Origin: Candidatus Tectimicrobiota bacterium
Lineage (GTDB): Bacteria; JACPSX01
Reading direction: 5' to 3'
Length of the DNA: 10,275 nucleotides
Assembly (NCBI GenBank): GCA_016193065.1
Contig: JACPSX010000283.1
Coordinates: 1-10,275 of the forward strand
The position numbers and the translations under genes were made by a program. Each line of letters opens with the position of its first letter. Within the stretch, counting starts at the first letter, position 1. The notes under the pieces were generated by a model. It was not told where the DNA came from and did no database searches. It saw nothing but the letters and a program-made list of their open reading frames with translations. This document shows, piece after piece, positions 564 through 9,123 of the stretch.

Positions 564-1574
564 CTACCGGTACAGATTCGCGATGAACCCGGATCCTTCC
601 AGTTCTCTGAGGAAGCTGTCGTCCACGAGGCGGTTGACGTCCACGGAAGCGATGCGCGGATTCAGGGGGACCTGGATCTTCACGACGGTTCTCAAGCCTT
701 CCAGCGTCGGGTAGGGGACCCGCGCGATCATCTTCACGCCGAAATAGTGCCGGGTTTTTTCGAGGATCTTCGGGTCCTGGATTTTGCTGTACTTCGCCAG
801 GACTTTATGAGAAGTCTCCGCATCGGTTTTGAGGATATGGATGGCGTTGACGAAGGCCTTCATGAATTTCTCGACGTTGTCCCGGTGCGCCTGGATGTAG
901 CGCCTGGTGACGGTGACGCAGGCCCCCTGCGTCGGGATCCCCAGGGTGGAGATGTCCACCACGGTGTGATAGCCCAGGTCCTCCCCCTTAAAGAGCATGG
1001 GAGGGCTCAACATCCCCACGTCCACCACTCCGGTCTCCATGGCGGAGACGACCGTCTCCGGAGGCCCGATCGGGTTGATCTTCACATCCGCGGGGGTGAG
1101 CTTCAAATACTGCAGCGCCAGGAGGAGGGAGTTGTGAGGCTCGCTGCCGGGCTTGTCCGTGGCGATCACCTTCCCTTTGAGGTCCGCCGCCGTCATCGGG
1201 GTCTTTGACATCAGCGAGAGCCCCGGGGTGTTCGTCAGGCTTGCGATGATCACCACGTCCTGCCCGGCCGCCCCGGCATTCACTACGGCATTGCCGGAAT
1301 TGACCGTGATGTCCAGGTCACCTGCCAGCAGCGCCTTGGTGGCGTTCTGGGAACCCCGGACAAACACGACCTCCGTGTCCATCCCGTACTTCTGGTACAG
1401 ATTCTTCTCTTTGGCAATCCAGATCGGGGCCATGACCCCGCTCACCGCAACCCAGGCGATCTTGGTCCTCGTCCCCTGGGCGAAAGCCGCCTGTTCGCGA
1501 CCGGCAGGCGCCACAGGACTCCAGAGAAATGCGGCAAGGACAATAATCCATACGACCCGTTTCCAGTTTCCCAT
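564..1574 (-). CDS. ABC transporter solute-binding protein, NMT1/TauA-like
   Basis: A complete periplasmic solute-binding protein of 336 residues. The ATG at 1574 is preferred over the in-frame ATG at 1589 because GGGGAG lies 7 bases before it; the longer form would add five residues. It starts with MGNWKRVVWIIVLAAFLW, a signal peptide. The mature part carries AVSGVMAPIWIAKEKNLYQK, the YGMDTEVVFVRGSQNATKAL strand-helix unit, a DLKGKVIATDKPGSEPH hinge segment and a MLSPPMLFKGEDLGY region, all usual in NMT1/SsuA-type proteins. Such proteins deliver a ligand to an inner-membrane permease and ATPase. Neither partner is in the window. It lies 27 bases downstream of the double-Sec ribbon gene and so may share its transcript. 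Ligand unknown; aromatic, sulfonate or pyrimidine-precursor substrates are all known in the superfamily. Confidence 0.9.
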   Translation of the reverse strand: MGNWKRVVWIIVLAAFLWSPVAPAGREQAAFAQGTRTKIAWVAVSGVMAPIWIAKEKNLYQKYGMDTEVVFVRGSQNATKALLAGDLDITVNSGNAVVNAGAAGQDVVIIASLTNTPGLSLMSKTPMTAADLKGKVIATDKPGSEPHNSLLLALQYLKLTPADVKINPIGPPETVVSAMETGVVDVGMLSPPMLFKGEDLGYHTVVDISTLGIPTQGACVTVTRRYIQAHRDNVEKFMKAFVNAIHILKTDAETSHKVLAKYSKIQDPKILEKTRHYFGVKMIARVPYPTLEGLRTVVKIQVPLNPRIASVDVNRLVDDSFLRELEGSGFIANLYR

Positions 1575-1601
1575 GGTAGTTCTCCCCATCAGGACCGCCT
1601 T

Positions 1602-1913
1602 TTACTTCGGCGCTTCGGCGGCAAAGGCGCCGAATTCATAGGTAAGGACAAACTGCCGGCCGCAGTGGGAAATCCGCTCTCCGGCCCGGACCCCTTCGGG
1701 AAGCACGATCGTTTTGCGGCACACCGGACAGCTCACAATCTCCGCGATCCGGGCCACAAGCTCCGTCCCCCTCCCCTTCAACCGAAGGGTAACCCCCGCT
1801 CAGTTCGGACAGTCCAACAGGTCATCCTGCTTGGCCGCCTCCGGCAAGCCGATGTACCTGCCTCACCCCGGGCACCAGATCCGATCCGGATTGGACGAAA
1901 CTCCCCCGTTCAT
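1602..1913 (-). CDS. Novel double-selenocysteine zinc-ribbon-like protein (two in-frame TGA)
   Basis: Reading TGA as Sec gives a 103-residue protein ending at TAA 1602-1604. TGA is codon 17 (1863-1865) in WCPGUGRYIGLPE and codon 38 (1800-1802) in LLDCPNUAGVTLRL. The two CxxU pairs are spaced like the two CxxC knuckles of a zinc ribbon. A second ribbon-like unit has ordinary cysteines: SCPVCRKTIVLPEG at 61-74 and SHCGRQFVLTYEFG at 82-95. Conserved-looking protein sequence continues after both TGA codons, and each TGA is followed by a SECIS-like hairpin (1829-1849 and 1774-1789). The ATG at 1913 overlaps the glutaredoxin stop as ATGA, which implies coupled translation. No signal peptide, so probably cytoplasmic. 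I do not recognise the family. CxxU could be a redox pair, as in SelW, or an unusual metal site. Decay of an ordinary CxxC protein by two C-to-A changes at homologous positions is possible but unlikely. Confidence 0.78.
1774..1789 (-). promoter_or_regulatory. Candidate bacterial SECIS hairpin for Sec38 of the ribbon protein
   Basis: On the minus strand CCCTTC pairs with GAAGGG in a perfect 6-bp stem with loop GGTT. The loop starts 16 nt after the TGA at 1800-1802. A G in the first two loop bases and this distance match the general description of bacterial SECIS elements read by SelB. Confidence 0.65.
1829..1849 (-). promoter_or_regulatory. Candidate bacterial SECIS hairpin for Sec17 of the ribbon protein
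   Basis: On the minus strand GCTTG-CC pairs with GG-C-CAAGC: seven base pairs with one bulged C, and loop GGAGGC. The loop starts 20 nt after the TGA at 1863-1865 and begins with GG. A small bulge below the apical stem is also seen in the known E. coli fdhF element. Confidence 0.6.
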
Positions 1914-2152
1914 GGCAGCTTCAGCAGCTCCTGCAGCCTGCCCCGGTCGAACCCCACGATCACTTCGCCCCCCACGGTGATCACGGGAACCGCCTGTCTG
2001 CCGCTCAAGCGCACGACTTCGTTGAGGGCCTCGAGATCTTCGGCCACATTGAATTCCTGGAAGACAACGCCTTTGGACGAAAGAAACTCTTTCGCTGAAC
2101 GGCAGGCGCTTCACGTGGGCGCCGTGTAAACTTTCACTTCCGGTTGGATCAT
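1910..2152 (-). CDS. Selenocysteine glutaredoxin (UxxC active site)
   Basis: With TGA at 2111-2113 read as Sec, this is an 80-residue glutaredoxin/NrdH-type thiol oxidoreductase. The active site at residues 10-17 is TAPTUSAC, where the family has TxPTCxxC, so Sec14 replaces the nucleophilic cysteine and Cys17 is the resolving residue. After the TGA come AKEFLSSKGVVFQEFNVAED, the cis-proline segment QAVPVITVGGEVIVGFD (47-63) and a final LQELLKL helix, together a full thioredoxin-fold glutaredoxin. The ATG at 2152 follows a strong GGAGGAGG site. A 7-bp SECIS-like hairpin lies just after the TGA. The gene itself ends with TGA at 1910-1912, so TGA is also a normal stop here. Sec glutaredoxins have been reported before from environmental sequence. 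It is the first gene of an apparent operon with the double-Sec ribbon protein, a possible redox partner. Confidence 0.9.
2078..2094 (-). promoter_or_regulatory. Candidate bacterial SECIS hairpin of the Sec glutaredoxin
   Basis: Minus-strand CGAAAGA pairs perfectly with TCTTTCG (7 bp) around the three-base loop GTT. The loop starts 23 nt after the TGA at 2111-2113. The same GTT loop closed by an A-T pair occurs in the TlpA element at 6439-6455. Confidence 0.75.
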
Positions 2153-2275: not shown

Positions 2276-2800
2276 TCAAAAATCGATGTCAATCTGTAGA
2301 GAATCGATAAACTTGTTGAATGAGGCAAATAATTCCATCACTCCAAGCGCTTCGATTATCTCGGCATCAGACGGGCCGGCCTCTCTAAGGGACCCGTAAT
2401 CAGAATGCGATATCTTCAGGGGAGCCACATTGGCTTTTCTTGCAAAACTGATAAGTGCTTTTTCTTTCCCGCTAAAATTCGCTTTTTCTATATTCTCTTC
2501 GATATTTCTAATCTCTTCATCCGAAACACCAATGGATTTTAAAGCGGCGGTATGGGCACGGATGCAGTAATTGCAGCAGTTGTCTCTGGAAACCAGAACA
2601 GCAATGGCCTCTTTCACTTTGCGGCTCAGGTTTCCTTCCATCATGAGCGCCTTGACCTTGTTCCAATTGGCCCCCAGAAGCGCTGGATGATGTGCATAGG
2701 TCTTAAACAGATTCGGCGCCGTGCCAAATGCGCTTTCAATTTCGTCGAGTACTTTCTCTGTTTCCTTTGATACGGTCTGGGGCGGTTTGATTCTCGACAC
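2276..2800 (-). CDS. AhpD-like / carboxymuconolactone decarboxylase family protein
   Basis: A 174-residue all-helical protein of the AhpD/CMD family, which includes alkylhydroperoxidases using a CxxC pair. The key segment is KEAIAVLVSRDNCCNYCIRA followed by HTAAL: an upstream Glu, CNYC and a His three residues after the second Cys, which is the AhpD-type proton-relay motif. A second helical half follows (KALISFARKANVAPLKISHS). I chose the GTG at 2800, with AAGGA 7 bases before it; the ATG at 2857 lies inside the TetR operator and would add 19 unlike residues. It sits directly downstream of the TetR gene and has its own operator copy, so it is the likely regulated target. Base composition is visibly AT-richer than the flanks. 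It has normal cysteines, although Sec versions of this family are known elsewhere. Confidence 0.85.
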   Translation of the reverse strand: MSRIKPPQTVSKETEKVLDEIESAFGTAPNLFKTYAHHPALLGANWNKVKALMMEGNLSRKVKEAIAVLVSRDNCCNYCIRAHTAALKSIGVSDEEIRNIEENIEKANFSGKEKALISFARKANVAPLKISHSDYGSLREAGPSDAEIIEALGVMELFASFNKFIDSLQIDIDF

Positions 2801-2848
2801 GATATTTCCTTTTCTAAATGTCCGGTTTACCCGGGAATGTCTAAAACT

Positions 2849-2862
2849 ACCGACCATTCGGT
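2849..2862. promoter_or_regulatory. Putative TetR operator ahead of the AhpD-like gene
   Basis: ACCGA and TCGGT form perfect 5-bp arms around CCAT. The surrounding ACCGACC(A/G)TTCGGTCTATTT is almost the same as the site at 3493-3507, differing at one base. It lies between the TetR stop and the AhpD-like start, where a bound repressor would block transcription of the latter. Confidence 0.75.
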
Positions 2863-2882
2863 CTATTTACTGTTAAGAGAAA

Positions 2883-3473
2883 TTACTTCTCCAATTCAAT
2901 CAGTGTCCTTAAAGAATTCAGACAATCCTTCAAGGGTTTTTCACTTTTTTCAAGGCGTGCAAGCATGATGCCTCCTTCGATAGTCATTACTATGTGCCTA
3001 GCCATCGCTTCCGCAGACAAATCACATCGTATCTGTCCTGAAGACTGAGCCGACCGAACCGCTACCCGCACTCTTTCGATCCATTCGCCGAATACCCTGT
3101 CGATAAACACAGCCACTTGTTTGTCTTTATCGCTCATTTCCAGTGCACTGTTACCAAAAATGCAGCCTCCGACGAACTTTGTACTTCTATGTTTTCCCAG
3201 AACCTTCTTAAAGAAATTATCGAGGCTTTCGCCTGCTGTCCTTCCCGTGAGAGAAGAGTCAAGAAATTCGAGGAATTCCGTACGCGCTTTTTCGAGAACG
3301 GCGTAAGTGAGTTCATTTTTATCGGAGAAATGGAAATACAAACTTCCTTTTTTAAGGCCCGTTGCTTCCATCAAATCACAAATGCTGGTGCCCTCAAAAC
3401 CCTTTCGCTGAACGAGACGGGTCGCCTCGAGTAGAATTTTCTCTTTTGTCAAAACTCCTTTAGACTGCCTCAA
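2883..3473 (-). CDS. TetR/AcrR family transcriptional repressor
   Basis: A 196-residue TetR-family regulator. Residues 8-55 form the helix-turn-helix domain: TKEKILLEATRLVQRKGFEG, then TSICDLMEATGLKKGSLYFH and FSDKNELTYAVL, with the family's KGSLYFHFxxKxEL recognition helix. The remaining residues form the helical ligand-binding and dimer domain, with a TetR_C-type pattern (TKFVGGCIFGNSALEMSDKD). The start is probably TTG at 3473, with AGGAAGG 7 bases before it; the ATG at 3480 runs into a stop within six codons in another frame. An operator palindrome overlaps its predicted transcription start, so it probably represses itself. A second copy precedes the AhpD-like gene downstream. The pair is AT-richer than the flanks, suggesting a cassette acquired together. 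The inducer is unknown, perhaps an electrophile or peroxide given the target. Confidence 0.92.
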   Translation of the reverse strand: MRQSKGVLTKEKILLEATRLVQRKGFEGTSICDLMEATGLKKGSLYFHFSDKNELTYAVLEKARTEFLEFLDSSLTGRTAGESLDNFFKKVLGKHRSTKFVGGCIFGNSALEMSDKDKQVAVFIDRVFGEWIERVRVAVRSAQSSGQIRCDLSAEAMARHIVMTIEGGIMLARLEKSEKPLKDCLNSLRTLIELEK

Positions 3474-4907: not shown

Positions 4908-5276
4908 TTACTTGACCTCCCGATCCAGCTTCTCCTTGTAGATGTTCCCGCTGCCCGGAGCGGCGCACGGATTCGCCGCCGCCCAGGGGTTGGCCGCCGC
5001 CGGCCGCGCAGTCGCCTTCGGAGAACTCACCTCCCGCTCCAGTTTCTCCCTGTAGATGTTCCCGCTGCCCGGAGCGGCACAAGGATTTTGTGCCTTGGGC
5101 GCACAAGGGTTCTGTGCCTTTGGGGCACATGGGTTGGCTGCCGGGGTGGCCGGAGAGGAGACCTCCCGTTCCAACTTTTCCCTATAGATCCTCTCCTGGG
5201 ACCAGGAGACTCCAACAGAGCCGACCAGAAAAGTCAGCACGGCCATCAGGACCACAACTGCCTTTACGGACCTCAT
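4908..5276 (-). CDS. Small secreted repeat protein with NPCA and IYREKLEREV repeats
   Basis: A 122-residue protein of unknown function. Residues 1-26 are a signal peptide (MRSVKAVVVLMAVLTFLVGS, cleavage near SWSQ). The mature chain has three copies of IYREKLEREV at 30-39, 74-83 and 112-121 (last copy IYKEKLDREV). Linkers carry NPC at 48-50, 56-58, 64-66 and 102-104, in the pattern NPCAPKAQNPCAPKAQNPCA. A fifth unit at 96-98 reads NPW, one base from Cys (TGG for TGC/TGT). GAGSGNIY-like junctions (APGSGNIY) precede copies two and three, so the protein grew by internal duplication. The ATG at 5276 follows AGGGG. It sits between ccdA and the pentahaem cytochrome gene, and the monohaem cytochrome of the same cluster has the same NPCA units. 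This suggests a shared periplasmic partner or metal, but that is inference. I do not recognise a family. Confidence 0.8.
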   Translation of the reverse strand: MRSVKAVVVLMAVLTFLVGSVGVSWSQERIYREKLEREVSSPATPAANPCAPKAQNPCAPKAQNPCAAPGSGNIYREKLEREVSSPKATARPAAANPWAAANPCAAPGSGNIYKEKLDREVK

Positions 5277-6150: not shown

Positions 6151-6711
6151 CTACTTCACTTTCAGGGCCGAAATCAGCTGGTCCCATTCGGGCCTGCTCA
6201 GGTCTCGTCCCCCCACGGCCTTCCCGGCGATTCTTCCTTTCCCGTCGATGAGAACCAGCGTCGGCGGGGCAAAAAATTCATAGGACCGGGCCACCTTCAT
6301 GTCCTTGTCCAAGAGGATCGGGAACGTCGCTCCCTTCTCCCGCACAAAGGGGCGGACCACCTTCTCTCCTTCCGCATCGATGGAGATCCCCAGGACCACC
6401 AGGTTTTCAGCTTTGTGCTTCTTGTAGAACGCCTCGAAGGAAGGAAACTCCTCCCGGCAGCTTGGTCACCAGGTGGCCCAGAAAACCAGCAGGATGGGTT
6501 TTCCCCGCCAATCGGAGAGTTTCTTCTTCCCTCCGTTGAGGTCCGGCAAAGTAAAATTCGGAGCCGGACGAACCGTCTGCGGCTCAAACCCCAGGGCCTT
6601 GAGGAGCCCCGGTTCGACCCCCATTGCCGTGGCGCGAAAAGCAAACATCACGAGAACAATGATGCTCAGGCCATAAACCCACCGGGACGTTCCTTTACGT
6701 TGCTTTCCCAT
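6151..6711 (-). CDS. Selenocysteine TlpA/ResA-family thioredoxin (WUPSC active site)
   Basis: Reading TGA at 6466-6468 as Sec gives one 186-residue protein instead of two broken frames. It has an N-terminal signal anchor (VYGLSIIVLVMFAF, residues 12-27), then the TlpA/ResA core: APNFTLPDLNGGKKKLSDWR, the strand LLVFWATW ending at residue 81, Sec82, PSC with Cys85 and REEFPSFEAFYKK. The rest holds VVLGISIDAEGEKV, FPILLDKDMKVARSY, and the cis-proline segment FFAPPTLVLIDGKGRI. Canonical relatives have WCPPC, so Sec sits exactly at the nucleophilic Cys. A 7-bp SECIS-like hairpin follows at 6439-6455. The start ATG at 6711 has a G-rich ribosome site (GGGAGGGGG). It acts in the periplasm, probably reduced by CcdA (next gene) and reducing haem-site or other disulfides. 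A decayed copy lies at 8446-8679. A frameshift or sequencing error is unlikely because frame and homology continue directly. Confidence 0.92.
6439..6455 (-). promoter_or_regulatory. Candidate bacterial SECIS hairpin of the Sec TlpA gene
   Basis: Minus-strand GGGAGGA pairs with TCCTTCC (7 bp, one G-U) around loop GTT. The loop starts 17 nt after the TGA at 6466-6468, close to the spacing in E. coli fdhF. Loop and closing pairs match the glutaredoxin element at 2078-2094. Confidence 0.75.
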
Positions 6712-6754
6712 CGGATATCCCCCTCCCCCTTATTCTCCCCGTGTCATCCAGATC

Positions 6755-6776
6755 CGAGATCGTGTCGGGGATCTCG
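6755..6776 (-). other. Inverted repeat between doxX copy 1 and the TlpA gene
   Basis: CGAGATC and GATCTCG form a perfect 7-bp stem around 8 bases in the 82-base gap. There is no U-run, so a terminator is doubtful. It could be an operator or an RNA element setting relative output of the two genes. Confidence 0.4.
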
Positions 6777-6793
6777 TTAAGATCCGATCAATC

Positions 6794-7177
6794 TCATTGC
6801 AAACTCCAAGGCCAGGAAGAGATGAATGTGATCAGAAGCGCCCCTCCAGACAGGGCGATGTTTTTCCAGAAATGGTGCAACTGGTTCATGCGGACCATGG
6901 GGTCCTTCTCCGCCCAGAAGTTGTGCATCTTAAAGGCAGTGGGAACGAGGAAAATGATCAAGAGCCATCCCCCAAGCACCGGCTGGTAGCCCAGCAGGAT
7001 ACTAAGACCGCCCAATAGCATCAAAATCCCGGTGCCCGCCACGGCCAGGCCGGGGGCCGGGATCCCCTTGCTGCGGGAGTACGCAGTCAGTTGGCCCATA
7101 TCCGCAAAGTGATGGATGCCATTCCAGATAAAAAACCCGCCAAAGACGATGCGACCGATCAGGAAGAGTACGTTCAT
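6794..7177 (-). CDS. DoxX family membrane protein (copy 1)
   Basis: A 127-residue DoxX-family protein with about four membrane helices: NVLFLIGRIVFGGFFIW, a helix in GLAVAGTGILMLLGGLSIL, GGWLLIIFLVPTAF, and a C-terminal IALSGGALLITFISSWPW. The family pattern LTAYSRSKGIPAPGLAV and the loop MHNFWAEKDPMVRMNQLHHF are clear. DoxX-type proteins sit in the inner membrane and are linked to quinone-dependent sulfur or thiol oxidation in some organisms, though the role of many members is unknown. The ATG at 7177 follows GCGAGGAG and overlaps the stop of a tiny upstream frame. It is followed by Sec TlpA and CcdA, which suggests membrane thiol redox work. Copy 2 at 8680-9063 is about 78% identical by hand count. 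Confidence 0.93.
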   Translation of the reverse strand: MNVLFLIGRIVFGGFFIWNGIHHFADMGQLTAYSRSKGIPAPGLAVAGTGILMLLGGLSILLGYQPVLGGWLLIIFLVPTAFKMHNFWAEKDPMVRMNQLHHFWKNIALSGGALLITFISSWPWSLQ

Positions 7178-7309: not shown

Positions 7310-7969
7310 CTACTTGGGGGCGCAAGGATTCTTGGGAGCGCAAGGGTTACCCGCCGCCCCGCAAGGGTTCTTTGCCGCACAGGGATTCTTTGCCCCGGCG
7401 GGTTTCTTGGAAGCAGCGGCCTTGAACTTCTTTTGAACCTCACCGGAGTAGGCAGTTAGCGCTGCCAGCTCCTTCGAATCCCAGGCCAGCGGCTTGGCCG
7501 CCATGGGGACCACCATGCAGATCTGCACCATTTCATCCAGGTGGATCTTGGCCAAACCGGCCTTCTCCTGCACCATATCCACCGCATGCGGGTAAGGCTT
7601 GGCAAATCCGGGCTTGAAGGCTGCATTGTTCTGATGGCAGGTCTGGCAGGACAGGCCGTTGGTGCTCAGCTTGGTATCTTTCCAGAGCTGCTCTCCCAGC
7701 TTGACCAGCTCGGCCCGCTTGCCGGCAAAGAGCTTGGTCCCGGCAGGACGCGTGATCAGTTTGGGGTCCACTTCCCATTTTCCGGCCTTGGCTGGCTTGG
7801 CGGCACACGGGTTTGTTGGCGCGCACGGATTCGCCGCCTTTTTTGGTGCGCACGGGTTGGCTGCCGCGCACGGGTTAGCTGCCTTTTGCGCTGCATCGGC
7901 TGCTATGAGACCCAACCCGAGAATACCGGCAATCAGCATCACGACGATTAGCAAACCTCGAAGTCTCAT
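7310..7969 (-). CDS. Secreted monohaem cytochrome c with NPCA repeats at both ends
   Basis: A 219-residue c-type cytochrome. Residues 1-27 are a signal peptide (MRLRGLLIVVMLIAGILGLG, cleavage near DAAQK). A repeat tract at 31-58 has four NPC units (AANPCAAANPCAPKKAANPC then NPCA). The cytochrome domain at about 65-183 has one haem site CQTCH (108-112) and a candidate distal Met at 152 or 156 in ICMVVPMAAKPLAWDSKELA, a pattern seen in class I cytochromes. A second tract at 194-219 has four more NPC units (NPCAAKNPCGAAGNPCAPKN...). The ATG at 7969 follows GGAGGGG; 19 extra upstream codons are not needed. Electron transfer in the periplasm is likely. The eight NPC cysteines might bind metal or form disulfides, but this is unproven. 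It heads the run of redox genes, with a complex hairpin leader 84 bases upstream. Confidence 0.9.
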   Translation of the reverse strand: MRLRGLLIVVMLIAGILGLGLIAADAAQKAANPCAAANPCAPKKAANPCAPTNPCAAKPAKAGKWEVDPKLITRPAGTKLFAGKRAELVKLGEQLWKDTKLSTNGLSCQTCHQNNAAFKPGFAKPYPHAVDMVQEKAGLAKIHLDEMVQICMVVPMAAKPLAWDSKELAALTAYSGEVQKKFKAAASKKPAGAKNPCAAKNPCGAAGNPCAPKNPCAPK

Positions 7970-8052
7970 GAAATCCCCTCCTCTCAGTTCGGCGTTAGCT
8001 TCAAAGGCCACGCACAAAATAACCAACTCTGAGGTTGTAACCTTTTAACTTG

Positions 8053-8445: not shown

Positions 8446-8679
8446 CTACCTTCGGAGACATGGCCGCGCCGGACGCCGCGGACGAAGGGCAGATTTTCCC
8501 CGCCCATCGGAGAGCTTTTTGTTCCCTCCGTTGAGGGCCGGCAGTGTGAAATCCGGGGCGGCCTGAAGCGCCCCTGGCTCAAATCCCAGAGCCTTGAGGA
8601 GGTCCGGCTCGATCCCCAGTGCCCGCCCGATGGCCCCGAAGACGAGCAGAACCGCAAGATCCGTCCGGATTGGCCACGC
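8446..8679 (-). pseudogene. Decayed 5' copy of the Sec TlpA gene
   Basis: Directly after the DoxX copy 2 stop, the same frame reads into LAVLLVFGAIGRALGIEPD, LLKALGFEPGALQAAPDF and TLPALNGGNKKLSDGRGK. This matches the N-terminal half of the intact Sec TlpA (MGVEPGLLKALGFEPQTV, APNFTLPDLNGGKKKLSDWR). Similarity is lost after the GRGK segment, and the frame stops at TAG 8446-8448 before any FWATWU active site. No start codon or ribosome site remains, so it is a truncated remnant of a duplicated DoxX-TlpA pair. Confidence 0.85.
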
Positions 8680-9063
8680 TCATTGCAGGCTCCAGGGCCA
8701 TGAGGAGATGGACGTGATCAGAAGAGAGGCTGCAGCCAGGGCGATGTTTTTCCAGAAATGGTGCATCTGGTTCATGCGGATCATGGGGTCCTTCTCCGCC
8801 CAGAAGTTGTGCATCTTATAGGCGCTCGCAATGAGGAAGATCACCAGCAACCATCCTCCAATCACCGGCTGGTAGCCCAGCAGGATACTCAACCCACCCG
8901 CCAGCATCAGTAGTGCGGTGCCCACAACGGCCAGGCCGGGAGCCGGAACCCCCTTGCTGCGGGAGTATGCAGTCATCTGCTTCAATTCGACAATGTTATA
9001 GATACCGCGCCAGACGAAGAAGCCCCCAAAGACAATGCGACCAATCAGGAAGAGAACATTCAT
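8680..9063 (-). CDS. DoxX family membrane protein (copy 2)
   Basis: A 127-residue paralogue of the DoxX protein at 6794-7177, the same length and about 78% identical by hand count. Differences cluster in the first periplasmic or cytoplasmic loop (GIYNIVELKQMTAY against GIHHFADMGQLTAY) and in conservative membrane positions. The C-terminal SSWPWSLQ is unchanged. The ATG at 9063 follows AAGGAGAAGAG and matches the start of copy 1; a longer start at 9105 is not supported. The frame is intact with no disabling changes, so it is probably still functional although its TlpA partner has decayed. A hydantoinase remnant lies 60 bases upstream, so its promoter is not obvious. Confidence 0.92.
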   Translation of the reverse strand: MNVLFLIGRIVFGGFFVWRGIYNIVELKQMTAYSRSKGVPAPGLAVVGTALLMLAGGLSILLGYQPVIGGWLLVIFLIASAYKMHNFWAEKDPMIRMNQMHHFWKNIALAAASLLITSISSWPWSLQ

Positions 9064-9123
9064 GACTCTTCTCCTTTCTCGAAGTTGTCCTTCCCAGAAA
9101 AACACCCGCCCCCAAAACCGGGT

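Follow-up and report, generated by a model that had tools for sequence, protein, structure and literature searches.

A predicted double selenoprotein with tandem zinc ribbons, paired with a selenocysteine glutaredoxin and mostly found near mercury-resistance-type genes

In a 10,275-nt stretch of bacterial DNA (the window), we identified a tandem zinc-ribbon protein in which two in-frame TGA codons, each standing in for the second Cys of its own CxxC knuckle, encode selenocysteine (Sec) with near certainty. Because members of this family usually lie in mercury-detoxification operons, and nearly always with a Sec-glutaredoxin, the ribbon probably handles mercury. A full-text literature search for selenoproteins with a LysW or zinc ribbon found nothing, and none of the papers found on selenoproteins and mer operons describes, by title or abstract, such a family, which may be mentioned in Haft's selenoprotein work. 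There is no LysW-type or tandem zinc-ribbon family in a prokaryotic selenoprotein catalogue from 2026 (119 families; PMC13188914), and NCBIfam (June 2026) has models for this glutaredoxin type, a UxxU protein and MerB-like selenoproteins, with the window ribbon passing none. The ribbon therefore appears to belong to a selenoprotein family outside both resources, with Sec as a ribbon metal ligand in a mercury context.

Mercury has a far higher affinity for selenium than for sulfur, yet we know of few natural proteins that use Sec as a deliberate metal ligand for detoxification. Double-Sec ribbons and a Sec-glutaredoxin in mer-type operons offer a concrete, testable case of such a ligand, and the family points to an overlooked mercury-resistance component in uncultured bacteria.

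Recoding of two TGA codons

The ribbon gene is read on the minus strand (1913→1602), a direction that the sequence-only reading did not give; a plus-strand reading of the same interval, which contains no knuckles, was rejected. With TGA translated as U, the protein reads MNGGVSSNPDRIWCPGUGRYIGLPEAAKQDDLLDCPNUAGVTLRLKGRGTELVARIAEIVSCPVCRKTIVLPEGVRAGERISHCGRQFVLTYEFGAFAAEAPK and has the geometry first described, with CPGU and CPNU 21 residues apart and then CPVC and HCG. Its ATG overlaps the stop codon of the upstream glutaredoxin gene (ATGA, 1910-1913). An Rfam scan of the whole window gave no match.

Table 1. Features of the window at and around the ribbon gene
Feature	Position	Strand	Basis
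Tandem zinc-ribbon double selenoprotein, 103 aa	1602..1913	minus	Translation with TGA as U, 51 aligned homologues, AlphaFold model
TGA codon, Sec17 (CPGU, knuckle 1)	1863..1865	minus	Cys/Sec in 50/51 homologues; at least 7 Sec/Cys changes on tree
TGA codon, Sec38 (CPNU, knuckle 2)	1800..1802	minus	Cys/Sec in 51/51 homologues; at least 6 Sec/Cys changes
SECIS-like hairpin after Sec17 (GCTTGCC-GGAGGC-GGCCAAGC, one bulge)	1829..1849	minus	Fold z −2.8
SECIS-like hairpin after Sec38 (CCCTTC-GGTT-GAAGGG)	1774..1789	minus	Stem of at least 5 pairs in 33/33 TGA homologues
Glutaredoxin selenoprotein (YruB / Uxx-star type, APTUSAC)	1910..2152	minus	Pfam Glutaredoxin, 62.8 bits
TGA codon, Sec14 of glutaredoxin (UxxC active site)	2111..2113	minus	Translation; same UxxC in partners at other loci
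ABC-transporter substrate-binding protein (NMT1/THI5-like), downstream; link to ribbon uncertain	564..1589	minus	Pfam NMT1, 67.2 bits
CMD/AhpD-like protein (Cys form), upstream; link to ribbon uncertain	2276..2857	minus	Pfam CMD, 56 bits

A first search returned a paralogue in the window's genome and a distant relative with the two TGAs retained. A contig scan with Cys-spelled patterns reached only five loci, and whole-genome searches supplied the rest: the family is present in 34 of 95 genomes of one phylum, that of a Rokubacteria (AR4) genome, and in 8 of the 386 scattered bacteria searched, the window's own genome included. Further members occur in Nitrospinota and Tectomicrobia records, and a tblastn search of plasmids gave no match.

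Sites were counted in 51 homologues with a clean match that align through both TGA positions; many come from related Methylomirabilota and are not independent, and contig ends truncate some of the loci. At site 1/site 2 these carry Sec/Sec (20 members), Cys/Cys (15), Cys/Sec (13), Sec/Cys (2) or Arg/Cys (1). The spacer between the knuckles is exactly 17 residues in every member, and all 55 in-frame TGAs within the aligned cores fall at the two knuckle positions, with none elsewhere. On a family tree built from few columns, in which many forks are unresolved, the state has changed at least seven times at site 1 and at least six times at site 2. The sequence-only reading had looked to homologues for Cys or Sec opposite residues 17 and 38, which is what 50/51 and 51/51 of them carry, and had proposed that protein-like sequence continues through both TGAs; the homologues do not stop at the first TGA, and their frames are intact in all loci except L096 (G127:C56). 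There the ribbon gene is split between two reading frames in overlapping pieces; no other decayed member was seen, and this one is either an assembly error or a pseudogene.

One SECIS-like hairpin had also been proposed for each TGA. That at site 2 was found exactly as described, a clean 6-bp stem with loop GGTT, and that at site 1 is bulged, with only four contiguous pairs around GGAGGC. In folding against shuffled sequences, the window's site 1 scored better than the shuffles (z −2.8) and site 2 alone was not significant (z −0.8). Across the family, we counted contiguous stems of at least five Watson–Crick pairs with G at the loop start within 50 bases after the site, which occur in ∼11% of shuffled sequences. 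These follow site 2 in 33/33 cases after TGA versus 7/19 after Cys-type codons, and site 1 in 17/23 cases after TGA versus 2/29 after other codons; in the site-1 homologues the stem has its loop 20 nt after the TGA. When the stems were held to fixed alignment columns, 91% of site-2 cells were paired in TGA rows versus 49% in Cys rows (35–53% when slid), and 88% versus 59% at site 1 (29–61% when slid). In L088, knuckle 1 has TGT (Cys) and a 7-bp SECIS-like stem is still present, as expected of a recent Sec-to-Cys reversion.

The sequence-only reading had asked for selA, selB, selC and selD in the window's genome, where part of this set was found. selB and selD share one contig, and selD itself contains Sec (CAGUAGK). 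Neither selA nor a convincing tRNA-Sec (selC) was found in the 86%-complete assembly, where the RF01852 matches examined were Trp, Ser, Leu and other tRNAs; the two genes are presumably missing because the assembly is incomplete. Their absence would fit a decaying gene in which the TGAs are true stops, a reading to which we give hardly any credence. It is contradicted by the family alignment, with 51 intact homologues and every core TGA at a ligand position, and by the repeated Sec/Cys swaps, the matching SECIS stems and the presence of selB and selD. We hold it as almost beyond doubt that the ligands of ribbon 1 went from Cys4 to Cys2Sec2 through SelB-dependent recoding of two UGAs, each with its own SECIS hairpin. 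Ribbon genes are probably truncated or missed wherever annotation takes TGA as a stop.

A double ribbon of the LysW type

Sequence searches tied the family to the LysW/ArgW amino-group carriers. The Pfam LysW zinc ribbon (PF21344) matches 45/51 members and the NCBIfam LysW/ArgW model NF041070 matches all 51 at E 0.001 or better, with the window ribbon at 44.9 bits, under the curated cut-off of 75. A search of PDB sequences with the ribbon returned LysW (3vpb, E 1e-4). An AlphaFold model of the window ribbon (mean pLDDT 88, pTM 0.70) had LysW as its five best structural matches, with Z from 7.1 to 5.7 and the next at 3.5, values that are modest and in agreement with the sequence searches. These matches cover both halves of the protein, two falling on the first and three on the second, so each half resembles LysW best. 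As structure and sequence agree, we describe the ribbon as a tandem LysW-type double ribbon. All four ligand positions of ribbon 1 are Cys or Sec in 50/51 members, whose alignment, together with the LysW-type fold and the hairpins, upheld the original proposal of a zinc ribbon in which Sec takes the second place of each knuckle. Ribbon 2 (SCPVC and SHCG in the window) keeps its CxxC in Rokubacteria, Nitrospinota and others and reads CAVG...ECHG in many members.

LysW ends in an EDWGE-type tail whose terminal Glu carries an amino acid. The window ribbon ends in FGAFAAEAPK, and since it lacks such a tail and has other gene neighbours, it is not a LysW. The zinc-ribbon fold is common to both; the family here is set apart by its tandem of two ribbons, Sec at ligand positions, the missing tail and a mercury gene neighbourhood.

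The ribbon was also compared with other known proteins. The nearest entry is an FmdB-family zinc-ribbon selenoprotein (TIGR02605, U/CxxU), predicted from two GOS metagenome reads (PMC2398784, PMC9312934). By its description, it shares with the ribbon the zinc-ribbon character and Sec within a CxxC knuckle, and it is known from two sequences without gene context. TIGR02605 matches 14/51 members at E 0.001 or better, and the window ribbon scores 19.5 bits, under the curated cut-off of 31.3. A SelW-like CxxU protein had been among the initial suggestions, and this found no support, as Pfam gave no SelW/Rdx match.

Partner genes and proposed function of the ribbon

The gene upstream of the ribbon in the window encodes a Sec-glutaredoxin that scores 84.4 bits with NCBIfam TIGR02196 and 66.2 bits with NF041212. 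Such a gene lies on the ribbon's strand in 49/51 loci and directly upstream in 46. At least one mercury-resistance-type gene was found within 3 kb in 43/51 loci, and the counts within this distance were 22 for MerB, 29 for MerT-like, 23 for MerF-like, 30 for UxxU MerP-like and 18 for MerR genes. The profiles for these counts were built from genes near the first few loci, and representatives were then checked against libraries: MerB (111.5 bits), MerF (43 bits), HMA (60 bits) and MerR matched, the UxxU protein exceeded the cut-off of NF041115 (109 bits), and the MerT match was weak (21.7 bits, under cut-off). The paralogue in the window's genome follows a MerR gene.

Some of these neighbours are themselves selenoproteins or resemble known ones. 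In the Rokubacteria loci, MerB has a TGA within its C-terminal motif (SLUTTINFFRS), presumably at the catalytic Cys position of canonical MerB. The same TGA was seen in L012 (2702-3364), L058, L060, L062, L063, L065, L070, L073, L075 and others, and other loci of this set keep Cys there. The neighbour MerB often has Sec at the catalytic Cys place, like the MerB-like selenoproteins (SaoL, NF040728); it is a different protein from the ribbon, and the enzyme that would deliver Hg(II) to it. The UxxU selenoprotein NF041115 (MerP/CopZ-like) is likewise a small double selenoprotein that binds metal and is encoded in these operons. It differs from the ribbon in its HMA fold and in having both Sec in one UxxU motif, and is a neighbour, not a relative.

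MerA C-termini with vicinal Cys (SCCA) lie next to the ribbon in L087 and, in the window's genome, on contig C46. MerA exceeds the TIGR02053 cut-off in only 2/43 genomes, which we count against a mercury carrier. Related flavoproteins give TIGR02053 matches in every one of the 43 genomes, and these matches were not used as evidence, the visible SCCA C-termini excepted. A flavoprotein beside the ribbon in L070 was rejected as MerA, being nearer to glutathione reductase. Neither merB nor a UxxU MerP over cut-off was found in the window's genome; the merB search matched in no control genome, and so its null result proves little. In the window itself there is no recognised mer gene, and the ribbon's neighbours are CMD, TetR and ABC-transporter genes. 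The glutaredoxin–ribbon pair can therefore also live outside mer operons.

We consider it likely that the ribbon works as a unit with the upstream Sec-glutaredoxin in mercury or organomercury detoxification. The explanation we lean towards overall, by a little, is that it is a soft-metal (mercury) acceptor or carrier serviced by this glutaredoxin. The ribbon protein is probably cytoplasmic, and we infer that its Cys2Sec2 site binds Hg(II) or organomercury. The selenolate–thiolate knuckles would be a very soft acceptor for Hg(II) or RHg+ that has come in by MerT/MerF-type transporters or been handed over by MerB, and the ribbon would then pass the mercury on or hold it. The Sec-glutaredoxin might reduce oxidised Se–S/Se–Se bonds, or remove the metal by thiol/selenol exchange and link it to a flavin disulfide reductase (MerA or GR-like). 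Read most simply, the operons would have mercury come to the ribbon from transporters or MerB, be exchanged with the Sec-glutaredoxin and end up at a flavin reductase. We count as a precedent the Synechocystis MerA-like enzyme, which depends on glutaredoxin 1 (as cited in PMC8261052). We give even odds to the wider proposal of a selenium-based mercury pathway in several bacterial phyla, in which selenium has replaced sulfur at one organomercury-detoxification step after another (the catalytic Cys of MerB, the UxxU binder, the glutaredoxin and the ribbon ligands), with the ribbon as a new dedicated mercury carrier. Sister proteins with Sec or Cys form a set for measuring selenium's added value.

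The near-constant glutaredoxin partner would also suit a redox relay, in which the Sec-glutaredoxin makes and breaks C-x-x-Sec selenenylsulfides and the ribbon is a reductant or a redox-controlled metal-release switch, not a carrier. CxxU is a common redox motif of selenoproteins (PMC13188914), and the window's neighbours include CMD, DsbD/CcdA-like and Sec TlpA-like proteins; the occurrence of the pair outside mer operons at this locus keeps the relay alive. We nevertheless think it rather unlikely, as the fold is that of a metal ribbon, not a thioredoxin, the four knuckle positions are almost invariably Cys or Sec (50/51), and most of the surrounding genes are for mercury transport or MerB rather than for general redox functions.

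The sequence-only reading had raised Hg, Zn or Cu sensing among the possible functions, beside a diselenide or selenol redox switch. The gene neighbourhood strongly favours its heavy-metal part, and favours a carrier more than a sensor. A sensor or regulator accessory, in which the mercury-bound ribbon signals to MerR or to an ECF sigma/anti-sigma pair, draws on the MerR genes within 3 kb in 18 loci, on ECF sigma-like genes beside the paralogue and on the stand-alone TRASH-domain proteins of Sulfolobus mer operons, which have been proposed to handle mercury (PMC3466566). The latter, also small metal binders proposed for mercury trafficking, belong to a different domain family without Sec and were confined, in that survey, to archaeal mer operons. 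The ribbon has no DNA-binding part and its gene shows translational coupling, or something close to it, with the glutaredoxin and not with a regulator, making such a role quite improbable. Kinship with LysW in sequence and fold would fit a role outside mercury handling, as an amino-group carrier or some other Zn-ribbon adaptor. This is highly improbable given the lack of an EDWGE tail and the presence of two ribbons instead of one; no lysine or arginine biosynthesis neighbours were recognised, and Sec would have no explanation.

Other genes of the window and related loci

A TlpA/ResA-like thiol oxidoreductase gene in the window (6151-6711, minus strand) carries a TGA in frame within its active-site motif (WATWUPSC, codon 6466-6468) and adjoins DsbD/CcdA-like and DoxX genes; its product is likely another selenoprotein. 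Part of this region (6151-7177, minus strand) is duplicated at 8449-9105 (minus strand), where another DoxX gene precedes a degenerate TlpA-like piece that ends before the Sec motif.

At locus L120 (G000:C85, ∼2400-3300, minus strand), also in the window's genome, an HMA-domain gene with an in-frame TGA (VCGLUALRV) lies just after a Rieske-type ferredoxin gene and possibly encodes a CxxU heavy-metal selenoprotein. Genes for ECF sigma factors or for anti-sigma-like proteins lie near the glutaredoxin–ribbon pair in L103 (G000:C64), L086 and L093, perhaps as a metal-responsive regulatory module, and the latter two loci also encode an HMA-like protein (CSGU in L093). Proteins with NPCA(A/P)KNPC repeats are encoded in the window at 4908-5276 and 7310-8026 (minus strand), and in two Nitrospinota loci (L013, ∼1402-1539; L014, ∼3-71) the Sec-glutaredoxin gene is immediately preceded by one for a short NPC-repeat protein.
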